64,000 nt of DNA, from the NCBI GenBank assembly GCA_024349765.1, contig AP026073.1, positions 5,890,001-5,954,000 on the forward strand. Direction: 5' to 3'. The stretch is from Streptomyces nigrescens. GTDB taxonomy: Bacteria > Actinomycetota > Actinomycetes > Streptomycetales > Streptomycetaceae. Below the pieces are notes generated by a model that was not told where the DNA came from, ran no database searches, and saw nothing but the letters and a program-made list of their open reading frames with translations. The position numbers were made by a program, and so were the translations under genes. Of this stretch, positions 9,721 to 23,600 are shown one piece after another (the stretch's first letter is position 1; each line of letters begins with the position of its first letter).

Positions 9721-12468
9721 GTGAACGAGCAGGAGGCTTTCCGGCCGGACGGAAACGATCCTGACGACGACCAGTCCGAGTTCGACCTGACCGGCGAGTT
9801 CAAGATCGACTTTGCCGCGCCGGCCTGGTACGCGAGCAACGACACCAGCGGCGGCGCGGGTGCCGCGGCTTCTCCTGCGCCTTCGCCCACCACTCCGCCG
9901 GCCGCGACGCCGCCCGGCCCGCCGACCGGTCAGCCGCTGACCGGGCCGGCCCAGGGCGCACCGGTGCCGGGCCTTCCGCAGCAGGGCGCACCGGCCGTGG
10001 ACGCCGCACCGCCCGGTTTCCCGACGCTGCGTCCGCAGGGCGCGGACGGCGCCGCGCCGGAGGCTGCCGCGGAGCCCGCGCCGGCCGCGAACGACGCGTC
10101 CGACGGCGGCAACAAGCGTTCCGGCACGGGTGTCGACCCGTCGGCCTCCCTCTGGGACGACGACGATGACGACAGCGAGCCGGAGCCCGAGGCGGCGCCC
10201 GAGACGGCGAACGCGGCCGCCGCCCCGGCACCGCAGCCGGAGGCCGTGGCCCCCAACTCCCCCACCGAGGGCGCCGCCCCGGCCGCGGAGGCCGCTCCCC
10301 CGGTCCAGCAGGCCCCGCCCGCCCAGCCGGTCCAGCACGTTCCCGATGCCGCCGCTCAGGGCGCGCAGGCGGGCCAGCCGCCGGTGCCGCAGCAGGCGCA
10401 GCAAGCGCAGCCGCAGGGCGCACCCGTACATGGGCAGCAGCAGCCGCCCGCCCAGCAGGGTCAGCAGCCGCAGCAGGGCGTGCCGCAGGGCGCTCCGCAG
10501 CAGCAGGGTGTCCCGCAGCAGGGCGCTCCGTGGGGCGCCGCGACGGACGGTCAGCAGCAGGGCGTCCCGGGCCAGGCAGTTCCCGGACAGGGGGTGCCCG
10601 GGCAGGGTGTCCCCGGTCAGGTCGTTCCCGGACAGGGTGGACTGCCGCCGCTGCCGCCGGAGTTCCAGCCCGCCGACCCACGCATGGCGCAGGCCCAGGC
10701 CGGTCAGCAGCCGCCGGCCCAGCAGGGTCAGCAGCCGCAGCAGGGCGTGCCCCCGCAGGGCCAGCAGCAGATGCCGGCCCAGCAGCAGCCGCAGGCACAG
10801 CAGCAGGCCGGATACCCGCAGCAGGCGCAGCACCCCCAGCAGGCCGGGTACCCCCAGCAGGGCCAGCCCGCGCAGCAGCAGGGCGCCTACGGCTATCCGC
10901 AGCCCGCGTACGGCTACCCGCAGCAGGGCCAGCCGCAGCAGCACCCCAACGCGGCCGCGCAGCAGCCCGCTTACGGCTACCCGCAGACCGCGGCGCAGGG
11001 CTACCCCCAGCAGGGCCAGCAGCAGCCCGGGTACGACCAGCACCAGGCGGCCCAGCAGGCCGCCCAGGCGCAGCAGGCCGCCCAAGCCCAACAGGCCGCC
11101 CAGGCCCAGCAGCAGGCACACCAGGCCCAGCAGCAGGCCCAGCAGGGGCAGCAGACGCCGTATCAGCCGCTGCCCGGCCAGCAGGCGGACCCCAACGCCG
11201 CGGCGAACTACGCGACGTACTCGCAGCCCGGTCAGCAGCAGCCGCAGCGGGCGGCTCCGGGCGCACCGCTCGGTTACAGCGCGGCGGTCGAGCTGACCTC
11301 CGACCGGCTGCTGCGCAACCAGCCCAAGAAGCGCAAGCCGGGCGCCAACGCGCAGCCGTCGAAGTTCAAGTTGGGCGCGAAGAAGGAGCAGGAGGAGCGG
11401 CAGCGCAAGCTGGAGCTGATCCGTACGCCGGTGATGTCCTGCTACCGGATCGCGGTGATCAGCCTCAAGGGCGGCGTCGGCAAGACGACGACCACCACGG
11501 CGCTGGGCTCCACGCTCGCCTCCGAGCGGCAGGACAAGATCCTCGCGATCGACGCCAACCCGGACGCCGGCACGCTCGGCCGACGGGTGCGCCGCGAGAC
11601 CGGTGCGACCATCCGTGACCTGGTGCAGTCGATCCCGCATCTGCACAGCTACATGGACATCCGCCGGTTCACCTCGCAGGCTCCGTCGGGTCTGGAGATC
11701 CTCGCCAACGACGTCGACCCGGCCGTCTCGACGACGTTCAACGACGACGACTACCGGCGAGCGATCGACGTCCTCGGCAAGCAGTACCCGATCATCCTCA
11801 CCGACTCGGGTACCGGTCTGCTCTACAGCGCGATGCGCGGAGTCCTCGACCTCGCCGACCAGTTGATCATCATCTCCACCCCGTCCGTGGACGGTGCGAG
11901 CAGTGCCAGTACGACCCTGGACTGGCTCTCCGCGCACGGCTACGCCGACTTGGTGCAGCGCGGCATCACGGTCATCTCCGGTGTCCGCGAGACCGGCAAG
12001 ATGATCAAGATCGACGACATCGTGTCGCACTTCGAGACCCGCTGCCGCGGCGTCGTGGTCGTCCCCTTCGACGAACACCTCGCCGCCGGTGCCGAGGTCG
12101 ACCTCGACATGATGCGGCCCAAGACCCGCGAGGCGTACTTCAACCTCTCCGCCCTGGTGGCCGAGGACTTCGCGCGGGCCCAGCAGGCGCAGGGGATGTA
12201 CCCGCAGCAGCAGATGGGCGGCGATCCGTACGCCCAGCAACAGCAGCAGTACGCCGCCCAGCAGGGCCAGCCGCAGCAGGGGCAGCCGCAACAGCACCCG
12301 CAGCAGGGCCAGCCGCCGGCCGGCTACCCGCCGCAGCAGGGCGGCTGGACCCAGCAGCCCGCCCAGGCGCCGGCCCACTGGCAGCAGCAACAGCCCGCCC
12401 CGGACGCCCCTCAGCCGGACCAGTCCGGCCTGGCCCCGGGCTGGCAGCAGCAGCCGCCTCCGCAGTAG
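9721..12468 (+). CDS. MinD/ParA-type ATPase with long Gln/Pro-rich regions (EspI-like)
   Basis: 915 residues from GTG 9721, chosen for AGGAGG 6 nt upstream; the frame is open further upstream without a ribosome site. The first about 250 residues are acidic and Pro/Ala-rich. About 250-510 are extreme Gln/Pro/Gly/Tyr low complexity with QQGVPQ-, YGYPQ- and AQQAAQ-type units. A MinD-like P-loop domain covers about 575-830, with deviant Walker [10 protein letters not shown] at 583-591, [12 protein letters not shown] and a DSGTG switch. Another Gln-rich tail closes the protein. Mycobacterial ESX-1 has an analogous Pro/Ala-rich P-loop protein, EspI. Likely a cytoplasmic ATPase regulating or positioning the secretion system; disordered tails may drive clustering. 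A hairpin terminator follows. Confidence 0.85.
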
Positions 12469-12501
12469 CACGGGCGGACGGGCGCGCACGCGCAGAGCGA
12501 T

Positions 12502-12546
12502 ACGGGTCGGGGCCCGGCACCTTGTGGGTGCCGGGCCCCGACCCGT
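12502..12546 (+). terminator. Terminator after the MinD/ParA-type gene
   Basis: 20-bp perfect stem (12502-12521 with 12527-12546) around a 5-nt loop, 34 bp after the stop. One of the strongest hairpins in the window. Confidence 0.88.
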
Positions 12547-12897
12547 GTGCGATGTCGGTGTGCCGGTCCGGCAGGCGATGCCGGTCCGCTCCGTGAACGT
12601 CTTGAGCGTCAGCGTCCTGAAGGTCATCGTGAAGGTCATGTACGTCGCGCGGGCTGCGGCCCCGCAAAGGCCGTCACGCCCGTACCTCACGCCGACCCGA
12701 ACGAGTGAACCATTCCCGGTCGAACTCCGCTTGATTCCGGCCGAGTTGACGTTCACGGCGGCACGACACCCGAGCGCTGCACCCGCCCACGCAACACGGC
12801 AGCCGCCGCCACAACCAACACGGCAGCCGCAGCCGCAGCCACAACCGCAGCCACCGCCAGCCCCGGCACCAGCACCACCGCCACCGCAGCACTACAC

Positions 12898-12926
12898 CCG
12901 CCCACCCCCCGAAGCGGGGTGGGCGG
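12898..12926 (-). terminator. Inverted repeat 3' of ribF
   Basis: 11-bp perfect stem (12898-12908 with 12916-12926), 7-nt loop. It lies 221 bp beyond the ribF stop between convergent genes and may stop read-through on minus. No U-tract. Confidence 0.5.
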
Positions 12927-12962
12927 CGGGGAAAAAACTGGTTCGCGGGGAAAAGCAGCGGG

Positions 12963-13077
12963 GAAGGCTTGCGCCGACGAGAGCGGCTGTCGTCGCCCGG
13001 CAAGGCTTGCGCCGACGAGAGCGGCTGCCGTCGCCCGGGACGGCTGCCGTCGCCCGGCAAGGCTCCCGTCGCCGGGG
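12963..13077. repeat. Tandem 38-bp repeats in the convergent gap 12469-13146
   Basis: Two nearly identical 38-bp copies (12963-13000 and 13001-13038) are followed by two shortened copies (13039-13057 and about 13058-13077). Each full copy contains a small hairpin (CGACGA..TCGTCG). The rest of this 678-bp gap holds the two hairpins listed and, at about 12790-12890, a Pro/Gln-codon-like run of CAGCC/CCGCAG units. No convincing gene is seen in it. Confidence 0.75.
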
Positions 13078-13146
13078 AAACCTCCGCCAGGCCGTCACGT
13101 CTCAGGCGCTCAGGCCCCAACCGGCCGCGGCCGCGCGTCCCGTCAG

Positions 13147-14094
13147 TCAGCCCGCGTCGGCGATGAGGCCGCGGGCCAGTTTCACGTCGACCGCCATCCG
13201 GTCCAGCAGGGCGTCGAGGGTGTCGAACTTCTCCTGGCCGCGGATGTAGGCGAGGAAGTCCACGCCCACGTGCAGCCCGTACAGGTCCAGCCCGACGCGG
13301 TCGATCGCGTATGCCTCGACCGTGCGCACCTTGCCGTCGAACTGCGGGTTGGTGCCGACCGAGACGGCCGCCGGCATCGCCTCGCCCTCGACCTGCAGCA
13401 GCCCCGCGTAGACGCCGTCGGCCGGGATTGCCGTGTGCGGCAGGGTTTCGACGTTGGCCGTCGGGAAACCCAGTTCACGGCCGCGCTGGGCGCCGCGGAC
13501 GACGACGCCCTCGACGCGGTGCGGCCGCCCCAGGACCTCCCGCGCACCGGTCACATCGCCGTCGGCGACCAGCCGTCGGGCGAGCGTGGAGGAGAACGGC
13601 TCGCCGCCGCCCGCCTCCCCGCGCTCGAAGAGGTCGACGACCTCGACGGTGTAGTCGTAGGTGGTGCCGAGTTCGGCGAGGGTCTCGACGTTGCCGGTCG
13701 CCTTGTGGCCGAAGCGGAAGTTGGGCCCCTCGACGACGACCTGTGCGTGCAGCTTGTCGACCAGCACCTTGACCACGAAGTCGGCCGGCGACAGCTTCGA
13801 GAACTCCTTGGTGAACGGCAGCACCAGGACCGCGTCCACACCGAGCTCGGTCATCAGCTCCGCACGCCGGTGGTGCGGCGCCAGCAGCGGCGGGTGGGTC
13901 CCGGGCCGTACGACCTCGCTGGGGTGCGGGTCGAAGGTGACGACCACCGCCGGGATCCCCAGCTCGCGGGCGCGCGCGACGGCCTTGCCGATGATCAGTT
14001 GGTGGCCGCGGTGCACACCGTCGTACGAGCCGATGGTGACGACGCTGCGTCCCCAGCCCTCGGGGATGTCCTCCAAGCCACGCCAGCGCTGCAC
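13147..14094 (-). CDS. ribF: Bifunctional riboflavin kinase / FAD synthetase
   Basis: 315 residues from GTG 14094, with GAGGAG 8 nt upstream. The N-terminal nucleotidyltransferase domain (about 18-170) has TIGSYDGVHRGHQ, the ATP-binding HxGH-type motif, and FDPHPSEVV. The C-terminal flavokinase domain (about 185-305) has GFPTANV, DGVYAGL and SVGTNPQFDG. It converts riboflavin to FMN and FMN to FAD in the cytoplasm. Length is normal. It is the last gene of the rimP-nusA-infB-rbfA-truB block, separated from truB by the protease-like/NTPase gene. Downstream are tandem repeats and a hairpin rather than a gene. Confidence 0.95.
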   Translation of the reverse strand: MQRWRGLEDIPEGWGRSVVTIGSYDGVHRGHQLIIGKAVARARELGIPAVVVTFDPHPSEVVRPGTHPPLLAPHHRRAELMTELGVDAVLVLPFTKEFSKLSPADFVVKVLVDKLHAQVVVEGPNFRFGHKATGNVETLAELGTTYDYTVEVVDLFERGEAGGGEPFSSTLARRLVADGDVTGAREVLGRPHRVEGVVVRGAQRGRELGFPTANVETLPHTAIPADGVYAGLLQVEGEAMPAAVSVGTNPQFDGKVRTVEAYAIDRVGLDLYGLHVGVDFLAYIRGQEKFDTLDALLDRMAVDVKLARGLIADAG

Positions 14095-14412
14095 TCTGCC
14101 CGCTCCTCGCCCGAACTCTTGTCAGTCCACTGCGCCACGTCGGCATGGCGCAGGTCTAAGACTGCCATGCCCCGGGTGGTGCTTCGCGCGAAGGGTCGCC
14201 GGCGACCGCCCGGTGGATCTTCACGGCGGCACCACGCCGACCCCGCACCCGGGCCGGGTACCCGGCCTCCGTCCCACGGACACCTGATCGCGAACCCCAG
14301 ACCGACGGCATCCGAGGTCGGGCTCGGGGCCGGGCTCGTGGCCGGGTCGGGATCGGAACCCTGGCCCCGGCCCGTTTCCCGGTACCCGCCCCGGCCCCAC
14401 CCCTCGGCCCGA
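14095..14412. other. Intergenic region upstream of ribF
   Basis: 318 bp between the ribF start and the end of the preceding minus-strand gene. It holds a GC-rich stretch of CCGGG/GGCCC runs (14300-14410) able to fold, and the ribF ribosome site at its left edge. No coding signal and no clear promoter seen. Confidence 0.5.
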
Positions 14413-17400
14413 TCACCCGCTCCGGCTCCCGGCCGCCGTCGTACGGGCGCGGGCTCCCCTCGTCGCGGCGGCCCCCGCCGGATCCGCCGGCGCCCCTTCC
14501 CGGAGCCGGCGGGCGAAGCCGGGCAGTCGGCGGCCCAGCTCCGCCAGCCGCCGCTCGTAGCGGGCCGCACCGCCCGGTGTACGGGCCAGCAGCACGCCGG
14601 TGCGCCGCACCAGGTCACGGGTGCGCTCCGCGGGCCGCCGTTCGCACCCCTCGGCGGCCGCCCGGAGCAGCGCTTCCAGGACGCTGGTGTCGTCGGCACC
14701 GTGCTCGCCCTGGGCCAGGCCGTACGGGCCCCTCTCCTGTTCCTCCTGCGCCAGCAGGGCCTCCAGCAGGTCGCCGCGCAGCGCTTCCGAGGCTCCGGAA
14801 CCGGCCTCCGCCAGTACATCGGCCAGTGCGCACCGGACCGGCGCCGGGCAGCCGGTGATCAGGTCACCGACCAACGGGCGCAGTGCGGCGCGGGCGGCCG
14901 GTCCGCGCTCCAGGCGATGGGCGACGAACTCCGCGACCGGGCGCGCGGCGCGGTCCGGGCTGCGCCGGGCGTAGTCACGGACGAGCGAGGCGGCACGGGT
15001 GGCGGGCCCGGGCGCGTCGAGCCCGGCGAGCAGCCGCAGCAGCGCGGCGGCGACCGGTGGCCCTTCGCCGCCGGTGAGCCGGGCCCGGAAGGCGGCCAGC
15101 ACCGGTACGGGGTGCTCGGCGAGGGCACCCGCGAACGCCGTGGGCGGCAGCTGCGGGTCTCCCGCCACGAAACGGGCCAGCGCCCGGGCCAGATAGCGGG
15201 GGCGGCTGACCGGGTCGCCCACCAGGAGCGCCAGCGCCGAACCCACACAGGGTTCGGCGAACGGTTCGCCCTCCGCTTCGCCCGTCACTCCGCCCCTCGC
15301 CGCGTGCTTCACTTCGCCCGTCACTCCGCCCCTCGCCGCGTGCTTCACTTCGCCCGTCACTCCGCCCCTCGCCGCGAGCTTCGCAACGTCCGTCGATTCG
15401 GACGACGTCCCGTGCGGTGTGGCCTGAGGCCCGGAGAGCAGGTCGAGGGCCGCCTGGCGGAGCAGGGCGCGGTCGGCCTCCGTACGGGCGTGGGGCGCGG
15501 CGCGCAGGCCGTACGACGCGGCGGCCGCCCGGCGGCGGGGGCAAGGGTCCTGGGCCCATCGGGCGACGGCCCGGCAGACCGTCGACGGCTCGTCCTCGGC
15601 GAGCGCGCCGAGCAGCTCGTCGCCCCTGGGGTGTGCGGCCGCCACCAGCGCCTCGGTGAGCGCATCGGGTGCCCGCCGGCGGTGGGCGTACAGCAGGGCC
15701 TGCGCGGCGGCCGCCACGGTGATCTCGCGCGGCGCCGGTACGGACGAATCCAGCAGGGGTGTCGAGTCGGGAGGCGGCGGCGCGGACCCCCGGGGCGGAG
15801 GTACGGAGCCGAGGGCCGAGCGGCCCGGCAGTCCGGCGCCCAGCAGGCGGTTGTCGTCGAACCACGAGCAGAACAGGGGCTGGATGCGCTGCGGGTCGGC
15901 ACGCAGCAGCCCGGCCGCGGTGTCCAGAAAGCGCGCCGGTGTGCCCACCGCTCCGCCGGCCCCCCGCCCGTCAGCCGGCACCAGCCGGCGCAGCAGGTCC
16001 AGCCGGTCCTTGTCCGCCAGTGCCAGCCGTTCCCAGAACCACGGCCCGAACGCGTCCAGCCCCGTGTGCGCGAAACCGCCCGCCCGCAGCGACCGTTCGG
16101 TGATCCGGTCGGCCAACAGCCGCAGCACGCCGGTGTACGGCCCGGCGTCGGGGACCTCGAGCAGTACGCCGGTCAGCAGCTGCCGGGCCCACCGGGGGCC
16201 GTCCACGGGCCGTGGGGACGCGATCGCCGCCCCCTCCCCGGGCGCATCCGGCTCCGACCCCCGCTCCGCCTCCGGTCCCCCTCCCGGAACGGCCGACTCG
16301 CCCCCTTCATCCGGAACACCCGGAAGGCCACGAACACCCGGAACACCCGGAACGGCCTTGAAATCCGGAACATCCGGCGACGACCCGTCGCAACCATCGC
16401 CATCGCCGGAACCGCCGCAGTCGCTGGAACCGCCGGCGCCACCGTCGCAAGAGAGGAACGCGGGCTGCGGCTGCGGTTCGTCCTCGCGCGGGGCCGGGGG
16501 CAAGCCGCTCCCGGAGGTCGCCCCGAGCGGCCCTCCGTCGGCCGCCGTCGCCATCGGTACCAACTCGGCGAGCCGGAAGGCGAGTTGGACCCGGCCCGCC
16601 TGCCGGGCGAGCCGGCGGAGCGCCTCGACGACCGGGGCGGGGCGGTGGCCCGGTACGGTCAGCAGGTCGAGATCGACGTGGGCGCCCTGCAGCCATTCGC
16701 CGAACTCGTCGTGGGCGAAGCGGTATCCGGGGCCGGCCGGCACCAGCAGGCCCTCCGCGAGCACCGCGGTGGACCAGCCGGCCCGGGCCGGGAAGACCTC
16801 CTCGAAGGACGGACGGTCCAACGCGCCCTCCACGGAGGCGAGGCAGCGGCGGGCGGCCTCGTGCACCTGGCCGGCGACCTGGGTGGCCAGCCGGCGCACG
16901 GCGGCGCCGCGCGGCGCGGGCCGGTAGCCCGCGGCGATGCGAAGGGCGATCCGCAGGGACGTCAGGGCCAGGTAGGCGTCGAAGACCTGGTGGCGGTCCG
17001 GTGCGCCGAGCAGCGCCCCGGCCGGCTCCCCGCCCCACTCTCCGTTTTCGCGTTCCGCCCCGGCAGCGTCCCCTCCCCCGGCCAACTCCTCCCGTACCTC
17101 CGCCAGCAGCCGCAGCGTCAGCGGGTGGCGGGCGTCCGGGGCGGCGGGGGCGCCGGGCGGCAGGCCGTAGCGTTCCCGGGCGCGCTCCGCCGCCGTCTTG
17201 GGGAGGTCGCCGATCGCCACGCAGTCGGGGAGGGCGGGCGCCGCACCGCCCGGTCGCGGCCGGTGCAGCAGCCCGGGCGGAAAGAGCGCTCCGGCCCGTT
17301 CCCAGTAAGCGGGGCGGCAGGCGATGACGAGCTGGACGCGGGCGGTGCGTAGCCAGTGGACCGTCGCGGCGGTCCACTCGGCCAGTCGCTCGTGCCGGGC

Positions 17401-18549
17401 CAGAGCGGGCGGCATCTCCTCCGGACCGTCGAGGAGCACCAGCAGCGGTCGGCCGGCGCCGGCGGCGAGTGCGGCAACGATCTCGGGTGTGGCGTCCGTC
17501 GGGTCGCCCGCCGTACGGCCCGAGGCGACGAGGTCCCGGCCCGCGGAGCGCAGCGCGCGCCCCACCGCGGCGCGTACGCCCTCGTCACCGGCCCGCAGGT
17601 CGGCGCCGCGCAGCCGGACGGTGGGGGCCGGTCGCGCGCCGGCCGCCCGGCGCGCCGCGAGCCGGGCCAGCTCCGTGCTCCGCCCGGTGCCCGGGCCGCC
17701 GACCAGAGCCAGCACGCGCGCCCCGGATGCCCGGTACGTCTCCGCCTCCGTGAAGCGGGTCAACTCCCCCTGGATGTCTGGGCGTTCGACTGGTTCGGGG
17801 ACCGGTCGGGTGGGGGCGGACGGGCTCGCGGAGAGGGCCGTGAGCCGCAGCACCCCGGCGGGGTTCAGTTCGCTGCCGTACGCGGGGACGGTCGCGGCGT
17901 TGCGTGCCAGCAGGGCGGCCAGTGGGCCCCTGGGCTCGGCCTCGGCGACCGCGCGCAGCGGGACGGCGAAGCCGCCGGCCCGCCGGCCGGCGTGCAGCGC
18001 GCTGCCGAGGACGCCGAGCACCACACCGGTCCGGCCGTCCAGCACCGGCCCGCCGATCGCGGGTCCGCCCAGCCGGAGTGCCTCCCGGCCGCCCGCGCAC
18101 AGGGCCAACTCCAGGGTGTGGTCGAGGGGGTGGACGCGGTCGCCGGTGGTGTACGTGACGCCGGAGGCGGGGCCGACGACCGTGCCGTCCAGCCAGCCGC
18201 CCGTCCAGAGCCGGGCCGGGGCGCCCGTGTCCGGCCGGGCCGTGCCGATCGGCAGCGGGCGGAGCCGGTCCGGGCGGAAGCCGGTGGTCTTGATGAGCGC
18301 GAGCCCGCTTCCGGGGAGGGGCGTGATGTCGCTCGGCTCCACCGGGCGGGTCCAGGCGGTGGCCGCCCCGCCGGTGGCCGTGACGGACCGCATGGGCTGG
18401 AGCACCAGTCCGGCCGCGCCGTCCACCGCCTCATGACTGGTGACCACCGTGCCCTCGTGATCCGCGAGGAATCCCGTGCCACGGGTGTGACCCGCCAGAT
18501 CGCGGATCCGCACCAATGCGGTGTCCGCATCGGCATCCAGCAACGCCAT
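14413..18549 (-). CDS. Trypsin-like pseudoprotease fused to a P-loop (STAND/NACHT-like) NTPase
   Basis: 1378 residues from ATG 18549 (GGAAGGAT upstream; the frame runs on to 18768 without support). Residues 1-205 have the fold signature of bacterial trypsin-like peptidases: GTGFLAD, the His region VTSHEAV (H39) and a terminal GGFAVPL. The other two catalytic residues are gone. The DLALL position reads SGLALIK (Gly82), and GNSGGP reads PAIGGP (Ile165). Residues about 280-400 are a P-loop NTPase with Walker A GGPGTGRS (284-291) and Walker B LLVLLDGPEE. A long helical region rich in Arg/Ala/Leu follows to the end, as in STAND sensors, broken by a Gly/Pro-rich linker (about 660-760). No membrane segment. 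It lies between truB and ribF on the same strand, behind the truB terminator. Role unknown; signalling or regulatory sensing is inferred. Confidence 0.75.
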   Translation of the reverse strand: MALLDADADTALVRIRDLAGHTRGTGFLADHEGTVVTSHEAVDGAAGLVLQPMRSVTATGGAATAWTRPVEPSDITPLPGSGLALIKTTGFRPDRLRPLPIGTARPDTGAPARLWTGGWLDGTVVGPASGVTYTTGDRVHPLDHTLELALCAGGREALRLGGPAIGGPVLDGRTGVVLGVLGSALHAGRRAGGFAVPLRAVAEAEPRGPLAALLARNAATVPAYGSELNPAGVLRLTALSASPSAPTRPVPEPVERPDIQGELTRFTEAETYRASGARVLALVGGPGTGRSTELARLAARRAAGARPAPTVRLRGADLRAGDEGVRAAVGRALRSAGRDLVASGRTAGDPTDATPEIVAALAAGAGRPLLVLLDGPEEMPPALARHERLAEWTAATVHWLRTARVQLVIACRPAYWERAGALFPPGLLHRPRPGGAAPALPDCVAIGDLPKTAAERARERYGLPPGAPAAPDARHPLTLRLLAEVREELAGGGDAAGAERENGEWGGEPAGALLGAPDRHQVFDAYLALTSLRIALRIAAGYRPAPRGAAVRRLATQVAGQVHEAARRCLASVEGALDRPSFEEVFPARAGWSTAVLAEGLLVPAGPGYRFAHDEFGEWLQGAHVDLDLLTVPGHRPAPVVEALRRLARQAGRVQLAFRLAELVPMATAADGGPLGATSGSGLPPAPREDEPQPQPAFLSCDGGAGGSSDCGGSGDGDGCDGSSPDVPDFKAVPGVPGVRGLPGVPDEGGESAVPGGGPEAERGSEPDAPGEGAAIASPRPVDGPRWARQLLTGVLLEVPDAGPYTGVLRLLADRITERSLRAGGFAHTGLDAFGPWFWERLALADKDRLDLLRRLVPADGRGAGGAVGTPARFLDTAAGLLRADPQRIQPLFCSWFDDNRLLGAGLPGRSALGSVPPPRGSAPPPPDSTPLLDSSVPAPREITVAAAAQALLYAHRRRAPDALTEALVAAAHPRGDELLGALAEDEPSTVCRAVARWAQDPCPRRRAAAASYGLRAAPHARTEADRALLRQAALDLLSGPQATPHGTSSESTDVAKLAARGGVTGEVKHAARGGVTGEVKHAARGGVTGEAEGEPFAEPCVGSALALLVGDPVSRPRYLARALARFVAGDPQLPPTAFAGALAEHPVPVLAAFRARLTGGEGPPVAAALLRLLAGLDAPGPATRAASLVRDYARRSPDRAARPVAEFVAHRLERGPAARAALRPLVGDLITGCPAPVRCALADVLAEAGSGASEALRGDLLEALLAQEEQERGPYGLAQGEHGADDTSVLEALLRAAAEGCERRPAERTRDLVRRTGVLLARTPGGAARYERRLAELGRRLPGFARRLREGAPADPAGAAATRGARARTTAAGSRSG
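15276..15383 (-). repeat. Three in-frame 36-bp tandem repeats inside the NTPase-fusion gene
   Basis: Units at 15276-15311, 15312-15347 and 15348-15383 encode three copies of a 12-residue unit, AARGGVTGEVKH-like. The first two are identical and the third differs in a few bases, so this is a recent expansion in a surface linker. Copy number is probably variable between strains. Confidence 0.9.
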
Positions 18550-18644
18550 TGCCGATCCTTCCCGCCGGTACCGTCCCCCGACGGTAAGCAGGCCGTGATC
18601 GTCCTGGCAGGGTGTGCGGCGAACGCGCCCCTGTCCACGCCTTG

Positions 18645-18677
18645 ATTCACTCCGAGCGCCTCGCCGAATGAGTGAAT
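18645..18677. promoter_or_regulatory. Inverted repeat ATTCACTC-N17-GAGTGAAT upstream of the NTPase-fusion gene
   Basis: Perfect 8-bp arms lie 96-128 bp upstream of the ATG at 18549. Each arm fits the BldD half-site pattern TNACNC/GNGTNA, although the known BldD site has the halves nearly adjacent. A TAnnnT (TACCGT on minus, near 18580) lies between it and the start. The same arms recur at 62151-62186. Confidence 0.4.
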
Positions 18678-18709
18678 GCCCGAGGTGCGCTGGATAGAGA
18701 TCAGGCGGA

Positions 18710-18775
18710 GGGGGATGGTGGAGCGCGGACCGGCACCCGTGCCTGCCGGGCGGCCCGCGTTCCACCACCTCCCCC
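18710..18775 (-). terminator. Terminator of truB
   Basis: Long imperfect hairpin: arms of about 22 nt with one small bulge (GGGGG..TGGTGGA against TCCACCACC..CCCCC), 32 bp after the truB stop. Confidence 0.75.
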
Positions 18776-18806
18776 GGAAGCCGGGTTTCCGGTCCGTCCC
18801 CAGGAG

Positions 18807-19736
18807 TCAGATGGCGAAGACCGCCAGGCTCTTGGCCTTCCCGCCCTGGTTCTCCACCAGCGCCAGGAACCGCCCGTCGGGCCCGAAGGCCGCGACCGGA
18901 CCGTCGGCCTCGAAGCGCGGCATCGCGATCCGTGCGCCGTTGAGCAGCAGTCGGGCCTGTGCCTCGGTGACGTCCCAGCGGGTGAAGGCCGCGTCCGCCG
19001 CCTCACCGACCGGCATGATCGGCAGCCCGTCGCCCTCGGGGGCGTCCACCGCCGCCTGCAGCTGCTCCAGGGTGTGCGCCCGGTCCAGCTTGTACGGCCC
19101 GACGCGGGTGCGGCGCAGCGCGGTCAGATGGCCGCCGACGCCGAGCCCGGCGCCCAGGTCGCGGGCCAGGGCGCGGATGTACGTACCGGAGGAGCACTCG
19201 ACGGAGACCAGCAGGTCGGTCACCGGCGTGCCGTCCTCCGCCTCGGTCTCGTGCGCGGAGTGCACCACGAACGAGGAGACGGTGACCGGGCGGGCCGGGA
19301 TCTGGACGTCCTCGCCCTCGCGCACCCGGGAGTACGACCGCTTGCCGTTGATCTTGATGGCGCTGACCTTGGACGGCACCTGCATGATCGCGCCGGACAG
19401 CTGCGCGACCCCGGCGTCGATGTCCTCGCGGGCCAGGCCGTGCGCCGCCTTGGACGCGGTGATCTCGCCCTCGGCGTCATCGGTGATCGTGGTCTGGCCC
19501 AGCCGGACGGTGCCGACGTACTCCTTCTCCGTCAGCGCCAGGTGGCCGAGGAGCTTGGTGGCCCGTTCCAGGCCCAGGACGAGCACGCCGGTGGCCATCG
19601 GGTCGAGGGTGCCGGCATGGCCGACCCGGCGGGTGCGGGCCATACCGCGCATCTTCGCCACCACGTCGTGCGAAGTGAAGCCGGCCGGCTTGTCGACGAT
19701 GACCAGGCCGCCCGGCTTGTTGCTCTCACGCTTCAT
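18807..19736 (-). CDS. truB: tRNA pseudouridine(55) synthase
   Basis: 309 residues. It converts U55 of the T-loop of tRNAs to pseudouridine. GLVIVDKPAGFTSHDVV opens the catalytic domain, and the nucleophilic Asp lies in GHAGTLDPMATGVL near residue 45. ECSSGTYIRALARDLG is the conserved motif III region. A PUA-like C-terminal domain runs from about 230. Only 2 bp separate rbfA from truB, so they are co-transcribed. Family length and motifs are standard. Confidence 0.96.
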   Translation of the reverse strand: MKRESNKPGGLVIVDKPAGFTSHDVVAKMRGMARTRRVGHAGTLDPMATGVLVLGLERATKLLGHLALTEKEYVGTVRLGQTTITDDAEGEITASKAAHGLAREDIDAGVAQLSGAIMQVPSKVSAIKINGKRSYSRVREGEDVQIPARPVTVSSFVVHSAHETEAEDGTPVTDLLVSVECSSGTYIRALARDLGAGLGVGGHLTALRRTRVGPYKLDRAHTLEQLQAAVDAPEGDGLPIMPVGEAADAAFTRWDVTEAQARLLLNGARIAMPRFEADGPVAAFGPDGRFLALVENQGGKAKSLAVFAI

Positions 19737-19738
19737 TC

Positions 19739-20188
19739 TTACGCGGTGCCCTCGTCATCCTCGTCGTCGCCGGGCTTGCGGTACGGATCGGCCTCGCCGG
19801 CGTACTGGGCGCCCGAGGAGGCCTCACGGACCTTGGCGTCCGAGGCCCGTGCCTTGTCGAGCAGGTCCTCGATGGTCTTGGCGTTCTCCGGCAGGGCGTC
19901 CGCGACGAACGCCAGGGTCGGCGTGAACTTCGTGCCGGCCGCGGCGCCGACCGCGGAGCGCAGCATGCCCTTGGCGCTCTCCAGCCCGGCGGCGGCGCTG
20001 GCCCGGTCCTCGTCGTCGCCGTAGACCGTGTAGAAGACCGTAGCCTCCCGCAGGTCGCCGGTGACCCGGGTGTCCGTGATGGTCACGTGCGAGCCGAGCC
20101 GCGGGTCCTTGATGCCGCGCTGCAGCTTCTGGGCGACCACCTCCCGGATGAGGTCCGCCAGCTTCTTCGCCCGCGCATTGTCGGCCAC
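19739..20188 (-). CDS. rbfA: 30S ribosome-binding factor A
   Basis: 149 residues. It binds immature 30S subunits and assists 16S rRNA maturation, notably in the cold. The KH-like core has the conserved opening RAKKLADLIREVVAQKLQRG, followed by DPRLG and VTITDTRVTGDL. The C-terminal about 30 residues are acidic (GDDEDDEG), common in actinomycetes. It sits between the DUF503 gene and truB in the standard order. Confidence 0.95.
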   Translation of the reverse strand: MADNARAKKLADLIREVVAQKLQRGIKDPRLGSHVTITDTRVTGDLREATVFYTVYGDDEDRASAAAGLESAKGMLRSAVGAAAGTKFTPTLAFVADALPENAKTIEDLLDKARASDAKVREASSGAQYAGEADPYRKPGDDEDDEGTA

Positions 20189-20254
20189 TGGTCCGTCTCC
20201 TTCTTGTCTTCCACAATTGTGCTTCCACCGGCGGCGACCTGCCCCGTCATCAGG

Positions 20255-20548
20255 TCAGTCGTCGTCGCCGTGCAGCCGTCGGCGTACCGACAGCAGCTCC
20301 ACTTCGGGCCGTGCGGCGACCAGGCGCTCGCAGCGGTCCATGACATCGGTGAGATGCCCGACGTCCCCGGACACCACCGCCAGGCCGATGGTGGCCCTGC
20401 GGTACAGATCCTGGTCCCCGACCTCCGCCACGCTCACCGCGTATTTGCGGTGGAGTTCGGAGACGATCGGGCGGACGACGGAGCGCTTCTCCTTCAGCGA
20501 CCGTACGTCGCCGAGAAGCAGGTCGAAGGACAACGTCCCTACGTACAT
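20255..20548 (-). CDS. DUF503 (YlxP-like) protein
   Basis: 97 residues from ATG 20548 (MYVGTLSFDLLL); a longer frame to 20587 has no better ribosome site. The family sits between infB and rbfA in many Gram-positives and is a small alpha/beta protein with the hallmark SLKEKRSVVRPIVSEL. Its role is unsettled, with ribosome- or RNA-related work inferred from this constant context. A terminator separates it from infB, so it may have its own promoter. Confidence 0.88.
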   Translation of the reverse strand: MYVGTLSFDLLLGDVRSLKEKRSVVRPIVSELHRKYAVSVAEVGDQDLYRRATIGLAVVSGDVGHLTDVMDRCERLVAARPEVELLSVRRRLHGDDD

Positions 20549-20642
20549 GCAAGCCGGGTCAAGCCACCCGTGGGGCCTTGGGGGCACCTCCCGGCATGGG
20601 CCGGGGGCGTACGTGTCAGTTCGAACCGTACACGCAACGGCC

Positions 20643-20680
20643 GGGGCCGATCGACGGAGTTTCTTCCGCCGACCGGCCCC
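20643..20680 (-). terminator. Terminator of infB
   Basis: 15-nt arms (20643-20657 and 20666-20680). As minus-strand RNA the two non-Watson-Crick positions are G-U pairs, while as plus RNA they would be A-C mismatches. That fits function on minus, 18 bp after the infB stop. Confidence 0.75.
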
Positions 20681-20697
20681 GAAAGGTCAGTGCGTGA

Positions 20698-23600
20698 TCA
20701 GCCGCGCGGCTTCTCTCGCATCTCGTACGTCGCGATGACGTCGTCGACCTTGATGTCGTTGAAGTTGCCGAGGTTGATACCGCCCTCGAACCCTTCGCGG
20801 ATCTCGGTGACGTCGTCCTTGAAGCGACGCAGACCGTCGATGTTGAGGTTCTCCGCGACCACCTTGCCGTCGCGGATGAGGCGCGCCTTGGTGTTGCGCT
20901 TGACCTCGCCGGAGCGGATGAGAACACCCGCGATGTTGCCCAGCTTGGACGACTTGAAGACCTCGCGGATCTCCGCCGTACCGAGCTCGACCTCCTCGTA
21001 CTCCGGCTTGAGCATGCCCTTGAGGGCCGCCTCGATCTCCTCGATCGCCTGGTAGATGACCGAGTAGTACCGGACGTCGACGCCCTCGCGCTCGGCCATC
21101 TGCGTCGCACGGCCTTCGGCGCGCACGTTGAAGCCGATGACGATCGCGTCGGAGCCGGACGCCAGGTTGATGTCGGTCTCCGTGACCGCACCGACGCCGC
21201 GGTGCAGCACCCGGATGTCGACCTCTTCGCCGACGTCGAGCTGGAGCAGCGAGGACTCCAGGGCCTCGACGGAACCAGAAGCGTCACCCTTGATGATGAG
21301 GTTGAGCTGCTGGACCTCGCCGGCCTTGAGCACCTTGTCCAGGTCCTCCAGGGAGACCCGGCGGGTGCGCTTGGCGAAGGCCGCGTTGCGCTCGCGCGCC
21401 GCGCGCTTCTCGGCGATCTGGCGGGCCGTGCGGTCCTCGTCGACGACCAGGAAGTTGTCGCCGGCACCCGGGACGTTGGTGAGACCCAGGACCAGGACGG
21501 GGGTCGACGGACCCGCTTCCTCGACGTTGTTGCCCTTGTCGTCGAACATCGCACGGACTCGGCCGTACGCGTCACCGGCGACCATCGTGTCACCGACGCG
21601 GAGGGTACCGCGCTGGACGAGGACGGTGGCCACGGCGCCGCGGCCGCGGTCGAGGTGGGCCTCGATCGCAATACCCTGCGCGTCCTGCTCGGCGTTGGCC
21701 CGCAGGTCGAGCGCGGCGTCCGCGGTGAGGACCACGGCCTCCAGCAGGGAGTCGATGTGCAGACCCTGCTTGGCGGAGATGTCGACGAACATGGTGTCGC
21801 CGCCGTACTCCTCGGCCACCAGGCCATACTCGGTCAGCTGACCGCGCACCTTGGTCGGGTCGGCGCCCTCGACGTCGATCTTGTTGACCGCGACCACGAT
21901 CGGCACGTCGGCCGCCTTGGCGTGGTTCAGGGCCTCGATCGTCTGCGGCATGACACCGTCGTTGGCCGCCACCACGAGGATCGCGATGTCGGTCGACTTG
22001 GCACCACGGGCACGCATGGCGGTGAACGCCTCGTGACCGGGGGTGTCGATGAAGGTGATGCGCCGCTCTTCTTCGTTGACCTCGGTCGCGACCTGGTAGG
22101 CACCGATGTGCTGGGTGATGCCGCCGGCCTCGCCCGCGATGACGTTCGTCTTGCGGATCGCGTCGAGCAGTCGGGTCTTACCGTGGTCGACGTGACCCAT
22201 GACGGTCACCACCGGCGGACGGGAGACGAGCATCTCCTCGCCGCCCTCGTTCTCGCCGAACTCGATGTCGAAGGACTCGAGCAGCTCGCGGTCCTCCTCC
22301 TCCGGGCTGACGATCTCGACGACGTAGTTCATCTCGTCGGCGAGCAGCTGGAGCGTCTCGTCGGAGACCGACTGGGTCGCGGTGACCATCTCGCCGAGGT
22401 TCAGCATGACCTGGACCAGCGACGCCGGGTTGGCGTTGATCTTCTCCGCGAAGTCCGTCAGCGAGGCACCGCGCGACAGCCGAACCGTCGCGCCGTTGCC
22501 GCGCGGCAGCATGATGCCGCCGACCGACGGGGCCTGCATGGCCTCGTACTCCTGACGGCGCTGCCGCTTCGACTTGCGGCCGCGACGCGCCGGACCGCCG
22601 GGACGGCCGAACGCACCCTGCGTGCCACCACGGCCACCGGGGCCGCCGGGACGACCGCCGAAGCCGGGACGACCGCCGAAGCCGCCGCCGCCACCGCCGG
22701 GGCCACCGCCACCGGGACGACCGGCGAAGCCACCGCCGGCACCGGGACGACCGCCGCCGCCACCGGGACGGCCGGCGAAGCCGCCGCCACCGCCCGGACG
22801 ACCGCCGCCGCCGGGACGACCGGCACCGCCGGGACCGCGGCCGCCGCCACCGGGGCCGGGACGCGGGCCGGCAGCCGGACGCTGCGGCATCATGCCCGGG
22901 TTCGGGCGGTTACCGCCGCCGGGACGCGGGCCCGCGCCGGGCGCGGCACCCTGCGGACGGGGCATGCCACCGGGGGTCGGACGCGCGCCGCCCTGGCCCT
23001 GGGGACGGGGACCACCCTGGCCGCCGCCCTGCGGACGCGGGCCGCCGGGACCACCCTGGCCGCCGGGACGCGGCGCGCCACCGGGACGGGGGGCCTGCGG
23101 ACGGGCCATGCCCGTGGAGCCACCGGAGGTGAAGGGGTTGTTACCCGGACGCGGGCCGGACGGACGACCGCCGGGACGCGCGGCCGGACGCTCGGCGCCG
23201 GGGCGCGGGGCGTTGCCACGGCCCTGACCACCCTGACCGGGACCGGGCGCCGGACGGGCCGGGCGCGGGCCGGGGGTGGCACCGGGACGGGGGGCCGACG
23301 GGGCGGCCGGGGGCGCCTGGAACTCGGGCTGCGCGGGCGCGGCCGGAGCGGGCTTGGGTGCTGCCGGGCGCGCCGGGGTGGGGCGCGGGCCGGGAGCGGG
23401 GGTGGTGCTCTTGGGGGCCGCGGGGGCCGGCGCCTCGGAGGCGGCCGGCGCCGGGGCCGCGGGGCCCGGCTTGGGGGCACCCGGCTTCGGGGCAGCAGGA
23501 CGAGCCGCCTGCGCCGGAGAGGGCGCCGACGGCTTCGCGGGGGCCGACTTGCGCGGCGCCGCGGGCTTCCCGGCGGCGCGGCCGTTGCCACTGCCTGCCT

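Follow-up and report, generated by a model that had tools for sequence, protein, structure and literature searches.

Bacterial NLR-like proteins of the NACHT type, including anti-phage proteins such as bNACHT25, follow an effector, NACHT and C-terminal layout, and their effector function is often predicted from the enzyme at the front (PMC12169576). A trypsin-like protease stands at the N-terminus of the defence-associated Avs1a, HamA and LmuA fusions, in which it cleaves and activates a partner nuclease encoded next door (PMC12799240), and inactive trypsins serve as effector-position modules in the vWA-MoxR ternary systems of multicellular bacteria, such inactive domains of conflict systems having been proposed to bind peptides or to act in a dominant-negative manner (PMC7159879). 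Similar in fold, the trypsin/HtrA-type pseudoprotease MamO has a changed nucleophile and binds metal, and the activity of its partner protease needs MamO and not the MamO triad (PMC4794232). Trypsins that are inactive in the effector position, fusions of trypsin with STAND modules and pseudoproteases of the trypsin fold have all been published before. Here we describe a gene in a stretch of 64,000 nucleotides of Streptomyces nigrescens (contig AP026073.1, positions 5,890,001 to 5,954,000 of the forward strand; hereafter the window) whose predicted product joins a trypsin-fold pseudoprotease to a NACHT core with Arg in its P-loop. This combination is what is new, and no dead trypsin joined to a NACHT core was found in the literature searched, which comprised titles and the starts of abstracts with few subscription papers.

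With the NACHT-type anti-phage proteins the predicted protein shares the overall layout and the order of motifs, and it differs from them in its dead effector enzyme, its Walker A Arg, its fixed and vertically inherited locus and the absence of defence context among its immediate neighbours. The Avs1a, HamA and LmuA fusions likewise begin with a trypsin fold, whereas in the present family the triad is never intact and none of the immediate neighbours is a nuclease gene; the preliminary description of this DNA had stated that Avs-type fusions use an active protease, which is correct for those fusions (PMC12799240) and leaves out the inactive effector-position trypsins already described (PMC7159879). 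In the vWA-MoxR systems the inactive trypsin is instead fused to the vWA component, and their iSTAND variant is described as absent from actinobacteria (PMC7159879). MamO, unlike the present family, keeps triad residues H116 and D149, belongs to the magnetosome proteins and has a TauE domain; the accessible part of that report describes no STAND module (PMC4794232). The same genome encodes a trypsin-nSTAND1-WD40 fusion (L205:1186-5343, minus strand; L and G numbers denote loci and genomes of our comparison set) that resembles the family in placing a STAND NTPase behind an N-terminal trypsin fold, and departs from it in its intact triad, its Walker A Lys (GPSGSGKT), its nSTAND1 domain and its WD40 repeats. 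A second fusion of a trypsin with a P-loop-like motif (GAGGAGKT), at L194, has His, Asp and Ser in place in an open frame of 1221 residues.

The protein is best read as a NACHT/STAND pseudoprotease, seen in Streptomyces alone among the genomes sampled, whose trypsin fold would bind rather than cut and whose NTPase would serve as a scaffold, a statement to which, taken whole, we give a probability of about 0.4. Its identity component, namely a NACHT/STAND protein that is a pseudoprotease throughout the family, carries Arg for Lys in the P-loop and is a vertically inherited accessory, can be regarded as practically certain from the comparisons below. With a dead enzyme and a replaced P-loop Lys in one single-copy gene that shows no sign of mobility, the family would be well suited to studying the role of such receptors when both activities are missing, and natural gene-less strains are available for comparison.

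Domain architecture and catalytic positions

The features that carry the argument are as follows.

14413 to 18549, minus strand: pseudoprotease-NACHT gene, 1378 residues, ATG at 18549 (translation, genome copy count, relatives)
17935 to 18522, minus strand: trypsin-fold domain, residues 10-205, limits by alignment (Trypsin_2, HhoA profile, hhalign)
18430 to 18435, minus strand: His39-Glu40, with Glu40 at the catalytic His position (ungapped alignments, column counts)
18304 to 18306, minus strand: Gly82 at the catalytic Asp position (column counts over 80 sequences)
18055 to 18060, minus strand: Ala164-Ile165, the catalytic Ser position (at 165 in HMMER and hhalign; at 164 in the multiple alignment of the genome's Trypsin_2 domains)
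16630 to 17787, minus strand: predicted NACHT-type STAND NTPase with a helical, winged-helix-like part, residues 255-640 (hhalign)
17674 to 17700, minus strand: Walker A, GGPGTGRST, Arg290 replacing Lys (motif counts in relatives)
17407 to 17445, minus strand: Walker B, LLVLLDGPEEMPP (DGPEEM in 80/80)
16693 to 16725, minus strand: YRFAHDEFGEW, opposite FvHrtFqdyL of NACHT proteins (alignment, hhalign)

The minus strand is open across the whole interval and the plus strand is interrupted by a stop; the gene is single copy in the 9.3-Mb, two-contig genome, and 14413-18549 is coding, since relatives of the 1378-residue protein keep the open reading frame in frame. Relatives were collected by scanning one genome per species, which gave 367 stretches encoding a relative, the best 80 of which were retained. 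The 80-row alignment used throughout comprises the query and 79 of these 80 loci, the frame-broken L003 being excluded. A wider set of 130 sequences adds 37 further distinct loci, picked by the DGPEEMPP motif after removal of 6 of 43 open reading frames as duplicates, and the 13 with a protease region among 14 loci that lack this motif, which were not de-duplicated among themselves.

On profile comparison, the front domain is assigned to the trypsin (S1/Trypsin_2) fold. Trypsin_2 matches the window protein over residues 24-180 with an E value of 1.6e-4, which falls short of Pfam's cut-off; within the family, 49 of 50 members match it at E values up to 1, the best being 5e-11. A hidden Markov model built from the genome's 23 other Trypsin_2 domains recovers the family domain in all 80 sequences, with a median E of 2.4e-6 and 0.016 for the poorest. 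Furthermore, the family profile matches HhoA (PDB 5t69) at E 3.4e-6, and hhalign aligns the family with the same 23 domains, the window protein left out, at a probability of 96.4 and E 1.1e-9. A dehydratase identity raised by a single-sequence PDB match (E 5e-4) did not recur in the profile search and was judged compositional.

The catalytic positions were read from an alignment of the genome's 24 Trypsin_2 domains, that is, the window protein and 23 others, each of which carries His, Asp and Ser in its respective column. In these active domains the catalytic His is the third residue after Thr (22 domains) or Ser (one). When GTGFLADHEGTVVTSHEAVDGA is aligned without gaps to trypsins that are active (TNNHVV, TCAHVV), Glu40 is the residue that faces their catalytic His; the window stretch T-S-H-E-A-V needs no gap, its flanks match (GTGF before, V-D-G after), and His39 lies one residue ahead of the catalytic position. 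The same register is obtained in the multiple alignment, in the HMMER comparison of the family profile with HhoA and in hhalign against the 23 active domains. Position 40 is Glu in 72 and Gln in 8 of the 80 sequences, and none of the 130 has His there. Position 82 is Gly in 39, Asp in 38, Asn in 2 and Ala in 1, and position 165 is Ala in 40, Val in 17, Ser in 10, Thr in 9, Ile in 3 and Cys in 1. For Ser the registers differ, HMMER and hhalign pointing to 165 and the multiple alignment to Ala164 with 165 as an insertion; since position 164 is Ala in 80/80 and residue 165 is Ile, Ser is lost from the window protein in either register. A complete triad occurs in none of the 80 sequences.

On a quick tree, residue 82 changes 14 times, 163 15 times and 165 nine times, whereas 40 changes once and 39, 164 and 168 not at all. 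With 39, 40, 164 and 168 near-unchanging and 82, 163 and 165 variable, the domain has given up catalysis and kept constraint on a portion of its cleft. Altogether, by sequence comparison the whole family has a pseudoprotease as its front domain, one more thoroughly altered than was first thought. The preliminary description had delimited exactly this open reading frame, giving no strand, which is now established as minus; its trypsin-like front domain, its placing of Gly82 at the Asp position and of Ile165 at the Ser position (in the HMMER and hhalign register) and its view of a pseudoprotease are all borne out, the last by the absence of complete triads and by purifying selection. Its claim that His39 is the retained catalytic His, in contrast, is contradicted by the three ungapped alignments, in which Glu40 occupies that position.

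The middle region is identified, again by profile comparison, as a NACHT-type STAND NTPase. Pfam NACHT is matched weakly by single proteins, 22 of 50 reaching E values of 1 or lower with 1.9e-4 as the best, and hhalign against a profile of 28 Streptomyces NACHT-hit proteins (28 of 34 loci, six weak matches being left out) gives a probability of 97.8 and E 1.2e-12 over 285 columns, compared with probabilities of 0.1-0.3 for three unrelated control pairs. This match spans Walker A, Walker B, the sensor-1 region, a GxP-like motif and the motif at the winged-helix end, with HPLxLRLL aligned to NPLMCAL and FAHEEL to FvHrtF. The motifs GGPGTGRS and LLVLLDGPEE, which the preliminary description had placed in a STAND NTPase, thus lie in a domain of the NACHT type; the substitution of Arg290 for Lys had been overlooked. 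Across the family Walker A reads GxPGxGR[ST]T, with Arg in 79/80, 37/37 and 14/14 sequences (130/131 together), whereas 27 of the 28 NACHT controls have a recognisable motif, with Lys in 26 and Arg in one. This last protein (L229, at another locus in genome G015) has the Walker A GDAASGRT, and the change from Lys to Arg is therefore not unique to the pseudoprotease-NACHT family. The Walker B surroundings vary in the 14 loci without the DGPEEMPP motif, all of which keep D, P and EE; the 37 loci chosen by that motif carry no independent information on Walker B. In animal NLRs, according to a review, ATP binding by NLRC4, NLRP1 and NLRP3 is abolished or reduced when Walker A is mutated, and a murine NLRP1b Walker A mutant is more active (PMC7583971).

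Distribution, inheritance and selection

A family profile of 50 members (the window protein and 49 relatives) matches 93 of 119 genomes of the order, all within the genus Streptomyces. One of these matches (G044, E 1.7e-4, residues 15-93, away from truB-ribF) is an ordinary trypsin and was discounted, and the gene is accordingly counted in 92 and absent from 12 of 104 sampled Streptomyces genomes. Among 296 genomes of the class, those outside Streptomyces gave weak partial matches only (8 genomes, best E 7.2e-6), and plasmid and phage collections gave no match at E 1e-5. Among the best 80 of the 367 stretches, 79 are titled Streptomyces or [Kitasatospora] papulosa and one Actinobacteria bacterium; in 77 of these 80 loci the gene stands between truB and ribF with all three on the same strand, and in the other three the contig ends inside the region.

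The locus was inspected in 15 Streptomyces genomes without a real match, 14 of which were readable. In 13 of the 14, truB and ribF lie 117-459 bp apart and enclose no gene, and G123 retains a remnant (L160:6571-7969) of 1398 bp with a 404-residue open frame, which has a start like that of the gene and part of the C-terminal region, the protease and NTPase parts being gone. On a TruB+RibF tree with seven sister-family genomes as outgroup, a quick tree in which 31 of 100 inner branches are open and in which G017, whose contig ends before truB, counts as absent, gene presence requires at least nine changes. The gene-less lineages G105, G044, G132/G059 and G064 branch close to the base, a pattern that one gain followed by about eight losses would fit. 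Distances of the gene and of TruB+RibF correlate (r 0.71 over 76 rows, with 0 of 1000 permutations as high), as expected for vertical descent. The nearest relative on this tree, S. endophytica (L003:6001-10121), has truB and ribF that are open and 99% identical and a gene that lies in several frames, a breakage that may reflect decay or an assembly error; in L012 the gene has one frame change. Taken together, the comparisons identify the gene as accessory and lineage-specific, passed on vertically, lost several times and in one case left behind as a remnant.

Where present, the gene is under purifying selection, as estimated from its coding sequence, and is nevertheless fast-evolving and dispensable. 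Median omega, from simple Nei-Gojobori counts over 15 close pairs (13 for the C-terminus; L020 used twice), is 0.17 for the protease region, the lowest of the three, 0.24 for the NTPase and 0.30 for the C-terminus; the C-terminal value of 0.81 for L012 is inflated, its row being non-homologous past the frame change. Invariant positions number 24 of 196 in the protease and 59 of 386 in the NTPase across the 80 sequences. Mean pairwise identity is 0.65, 0.66 and 0.61 for the protease, NTPase and C-terminal regions, compared with TruB at 0.84 and RibF at 0.87, and the mean gene distance is 2.6 times that of TruB+RibF.

Proposed function and alternative explanations

The trypsin fold is proposed to act as a protein- or peptide-binding module that does not cut. 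The preliminary description had suggested that the front domain may recognise peptides or hold a partner protease, which is a reasonable conjecture. Conserved residues around the former active site (His39, Glu/Gln40, Ala164, Pro168 and Asp171) would hold a partner in place, which may be an active protease of the cell or a substrate of such a protease, while the NACHT core would keep nucleotide bound, hydrolysing it slowly or not at all, and provide a scaffold for assembly or conformational change, and the variable C-terminal region would receive the signal. That the triad was not simply lost to free decay is argued by residues 39, 164 and 168, which never change, by residue 40, which changes once, and by the omega of 0.17. 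A related and rather speculative formulation is that of a doubly altered NLR-like protein, in which the protease and the P-loop Lys have both been given up genus-wide with the rest of both folds under purifying selection; the product would then be a static receptor-scaffold or decoy, and the former cleft with its near-invariant His39-Glu/Gln40 a ligand site.

Several observations weigh against a binding module on a scaffold NTPase. Asp is present at position 82 in 38 of 80 sequences and Ser at 165 in 10, and two (L024, L027) combine them, a pairing that the preliminary description held would speak against a pseudoprotease; such orthologues do exist, yet both lack His at the catalytic position, as do all 80, and none has a full triad. 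His39 is present in 128 of 130 sequences, missing only in L151 and L152, and a one-residue structural slip may rescue it; residues 39 and 40 could also matter structurally only. Whether the oxyanion hole is lost depends on the register: Gly is found at residue 163 in 20/80 in the HMMER and hhalign register and at residue 162 in 66/80 in that of the multiple alignment. Additionally, the NTPase domain appears altered rather than proven dead, Arg in a P-loop being no proof of lost nucleotide binding, and the repeated loss (at least nine changes, about eight losses under one gain) implies that the function, whatever it is, is dispensable.

The NACHT-type STAND architecture and the fast evolution, at 2.6 times the TruB+RibF distance, would also suit an anti-phage NLR-like receptor whose dead protease is bait: proteins with which phages or competitors attack active trypsin-type effectors would bind it and trigger signalling. 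The intact trypsin-STAND-WD40 protein of the same genome could be what is mimicked, and inactive decoy effectors have been proposed earlier (PMC7159879). Such a role nonetheless seems rather unlikely, given a fixed chromosomal locus with vertical inheritance, the lack of plasmid or phage matches, which together with that inheritance also led us to reject a mobile-element reading, and a PADLOC search (E up to 0.01) in which only mads_8 appeared, unconvincingly, in 2 of 50 members (best E 0.0008). The preliminary description had seen no neighbouring defence gene; this holds for truB, rbfA, infB and ribF, the rest of the window being unscanned for defence genes. Nor is a linked protease gene found among the immediate neighbours, which counts against a dominant-negative regulator or pseudo-subunit of proteins in the cell that have an active trypsin, be they of the trypsin family or trypsin-STAND fusions. 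In its favour are the 23 further Trypsin_2 domains of the genome, all with His, Asp and Ser, and MamO, a pseudoprotease needed for MamE-dependent proteolysis (PMC4794232); this explanation is unlikely.

The repeated losses, the G123 remnant and the frame changes in S. endophytica L003 and in L012 invite the view of a decaying relic without function, which is improbable in the face of median omega values of 0.17, 0.24 and 0.30 across the three regions and of the invariant protease (24/196) and NTPase (59/386) positions. The preliminary description had taken the position in a translation block to suggest a conserved housekeeping role; with truB and ribF as neighbours, this would be a role in translation or flavin metabolism. 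Synteny in 77 of 80 loci, the other three being contigs that end inside the region, speaks for it, but the restriction to one genus, the absence from 12 of 104 genomes, the clean truB-ribF junction in 13 of 14 readable gene-less genomes, an element just upstream of ribF that is conserved without the gene too, and evolution faster than that of TruB or RibF make this claim very hard to sustain. Hardest to credit is a protease that still cuts with an unusual catalytic set, for example His39 in a shifted register with another nucleophile: His39 is indeed in 128 of the 130 sequences with the region and Ser or Thr at 165 in 19 of 80, but in three ungapped alignments His39 precedes the catalytic position by one residue, 61 of 80 sequences have Ala, Val, Ile or Cys at 165, and all 80 have Ala at 164.

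Neighbouring genes, upstream elements and C-terminal region

The location between truB and ribF given in the preliminary description is correct: by NCBIfam names, truB, rbfA and infB lie on one side and ribF on the other, all on the same strand, with a plus-strand SCO5717-family gene beyond ribF. The candidate orthologue in S. coelicolor is presumably SCO5710, judged by its position between SCO5709 (truB) and SCO5711 (riboflavin kinase), and no mention of SCO5710 was found in the literature searched, which covered few subscription papers. Adjacent MoxR or vWA genes are lacking among the adjoining truB, rbfA, infB and ribF, genes further away being unscanned except for the SCO5717-family gene. 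The remaining features of the locus are these.

18646 to 18676, minus strand: imperfect palindrome of 31 bp, conserved, about 97 bp ahead of the start codon (pattern search in loci)
14149 to 14171 (hand-counted), minus strand: GGCATGGCAGTCTTAGACCTGCG, conserved, just upstream of ribF
16210 to 16566, minus strand: low-complexity linker, residues 662-780 (gapped in most relatives; tandem repeats)
14455 to 16182, minus strand: C-terminal region, residues 790-1365, the least constrained of the three regions

The palindrome, TTCAC(C/T)C...GGCGCTCGGAGTGAA, is probably the gene's own control site. Of 81 loci that have the gene, 68 carry its pattern, as do the remnant locus L160 and two of 13 gene-less loci (L161, L165); pattern matches in L173, L174 and the outgroup L238 are unrelated sequence and were left uncounted. 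A 16-mer of the palindrome occurs exactly once per genome in 6 of 13 genomes, just upstream of the gene in all six, and allowing one mismatch adds nine further matches, one of which (G001) is also at the gene. A shared operator was considered and rejected, the exact 16-mer lying at the gene locus alone in six genomes and no regulon emerging, as was a coding reading, the invariance showing no codon pattern when judged by eye. No sigma-70-type promoter or terminator was matched in 13900-19000, and Rfam gave no match in 12400-20800. As for GGCATGGCAGTCTTAGACCTGCG, it is kept in most loci shown, whether the gene is present or absent, and a related TGGCAC..CTTG stands ahead of ribF in the sister-family loci L239 and L242; it is possibly the ribF promoter.

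For the C-terminal ~730 residues, part of the stretch that the preliminary description had likened to a helical sensor and that is at most a putative one, Pfam and PDB searches gave no significant match, the weak ones being HEAT (E 0.14, in 1 of 24) and a PP2A scaffold subunit (E 0.37). A plus-strand antisense open frame of 1477 residues (window 12919-17352) overlaps the gene and is typical of high-GC DNA. The gene also contains in-frame tandem repeats of 36 bp (15276-15415) and 27 bp (16311-16377), in stretches that are gapped in most relatives.

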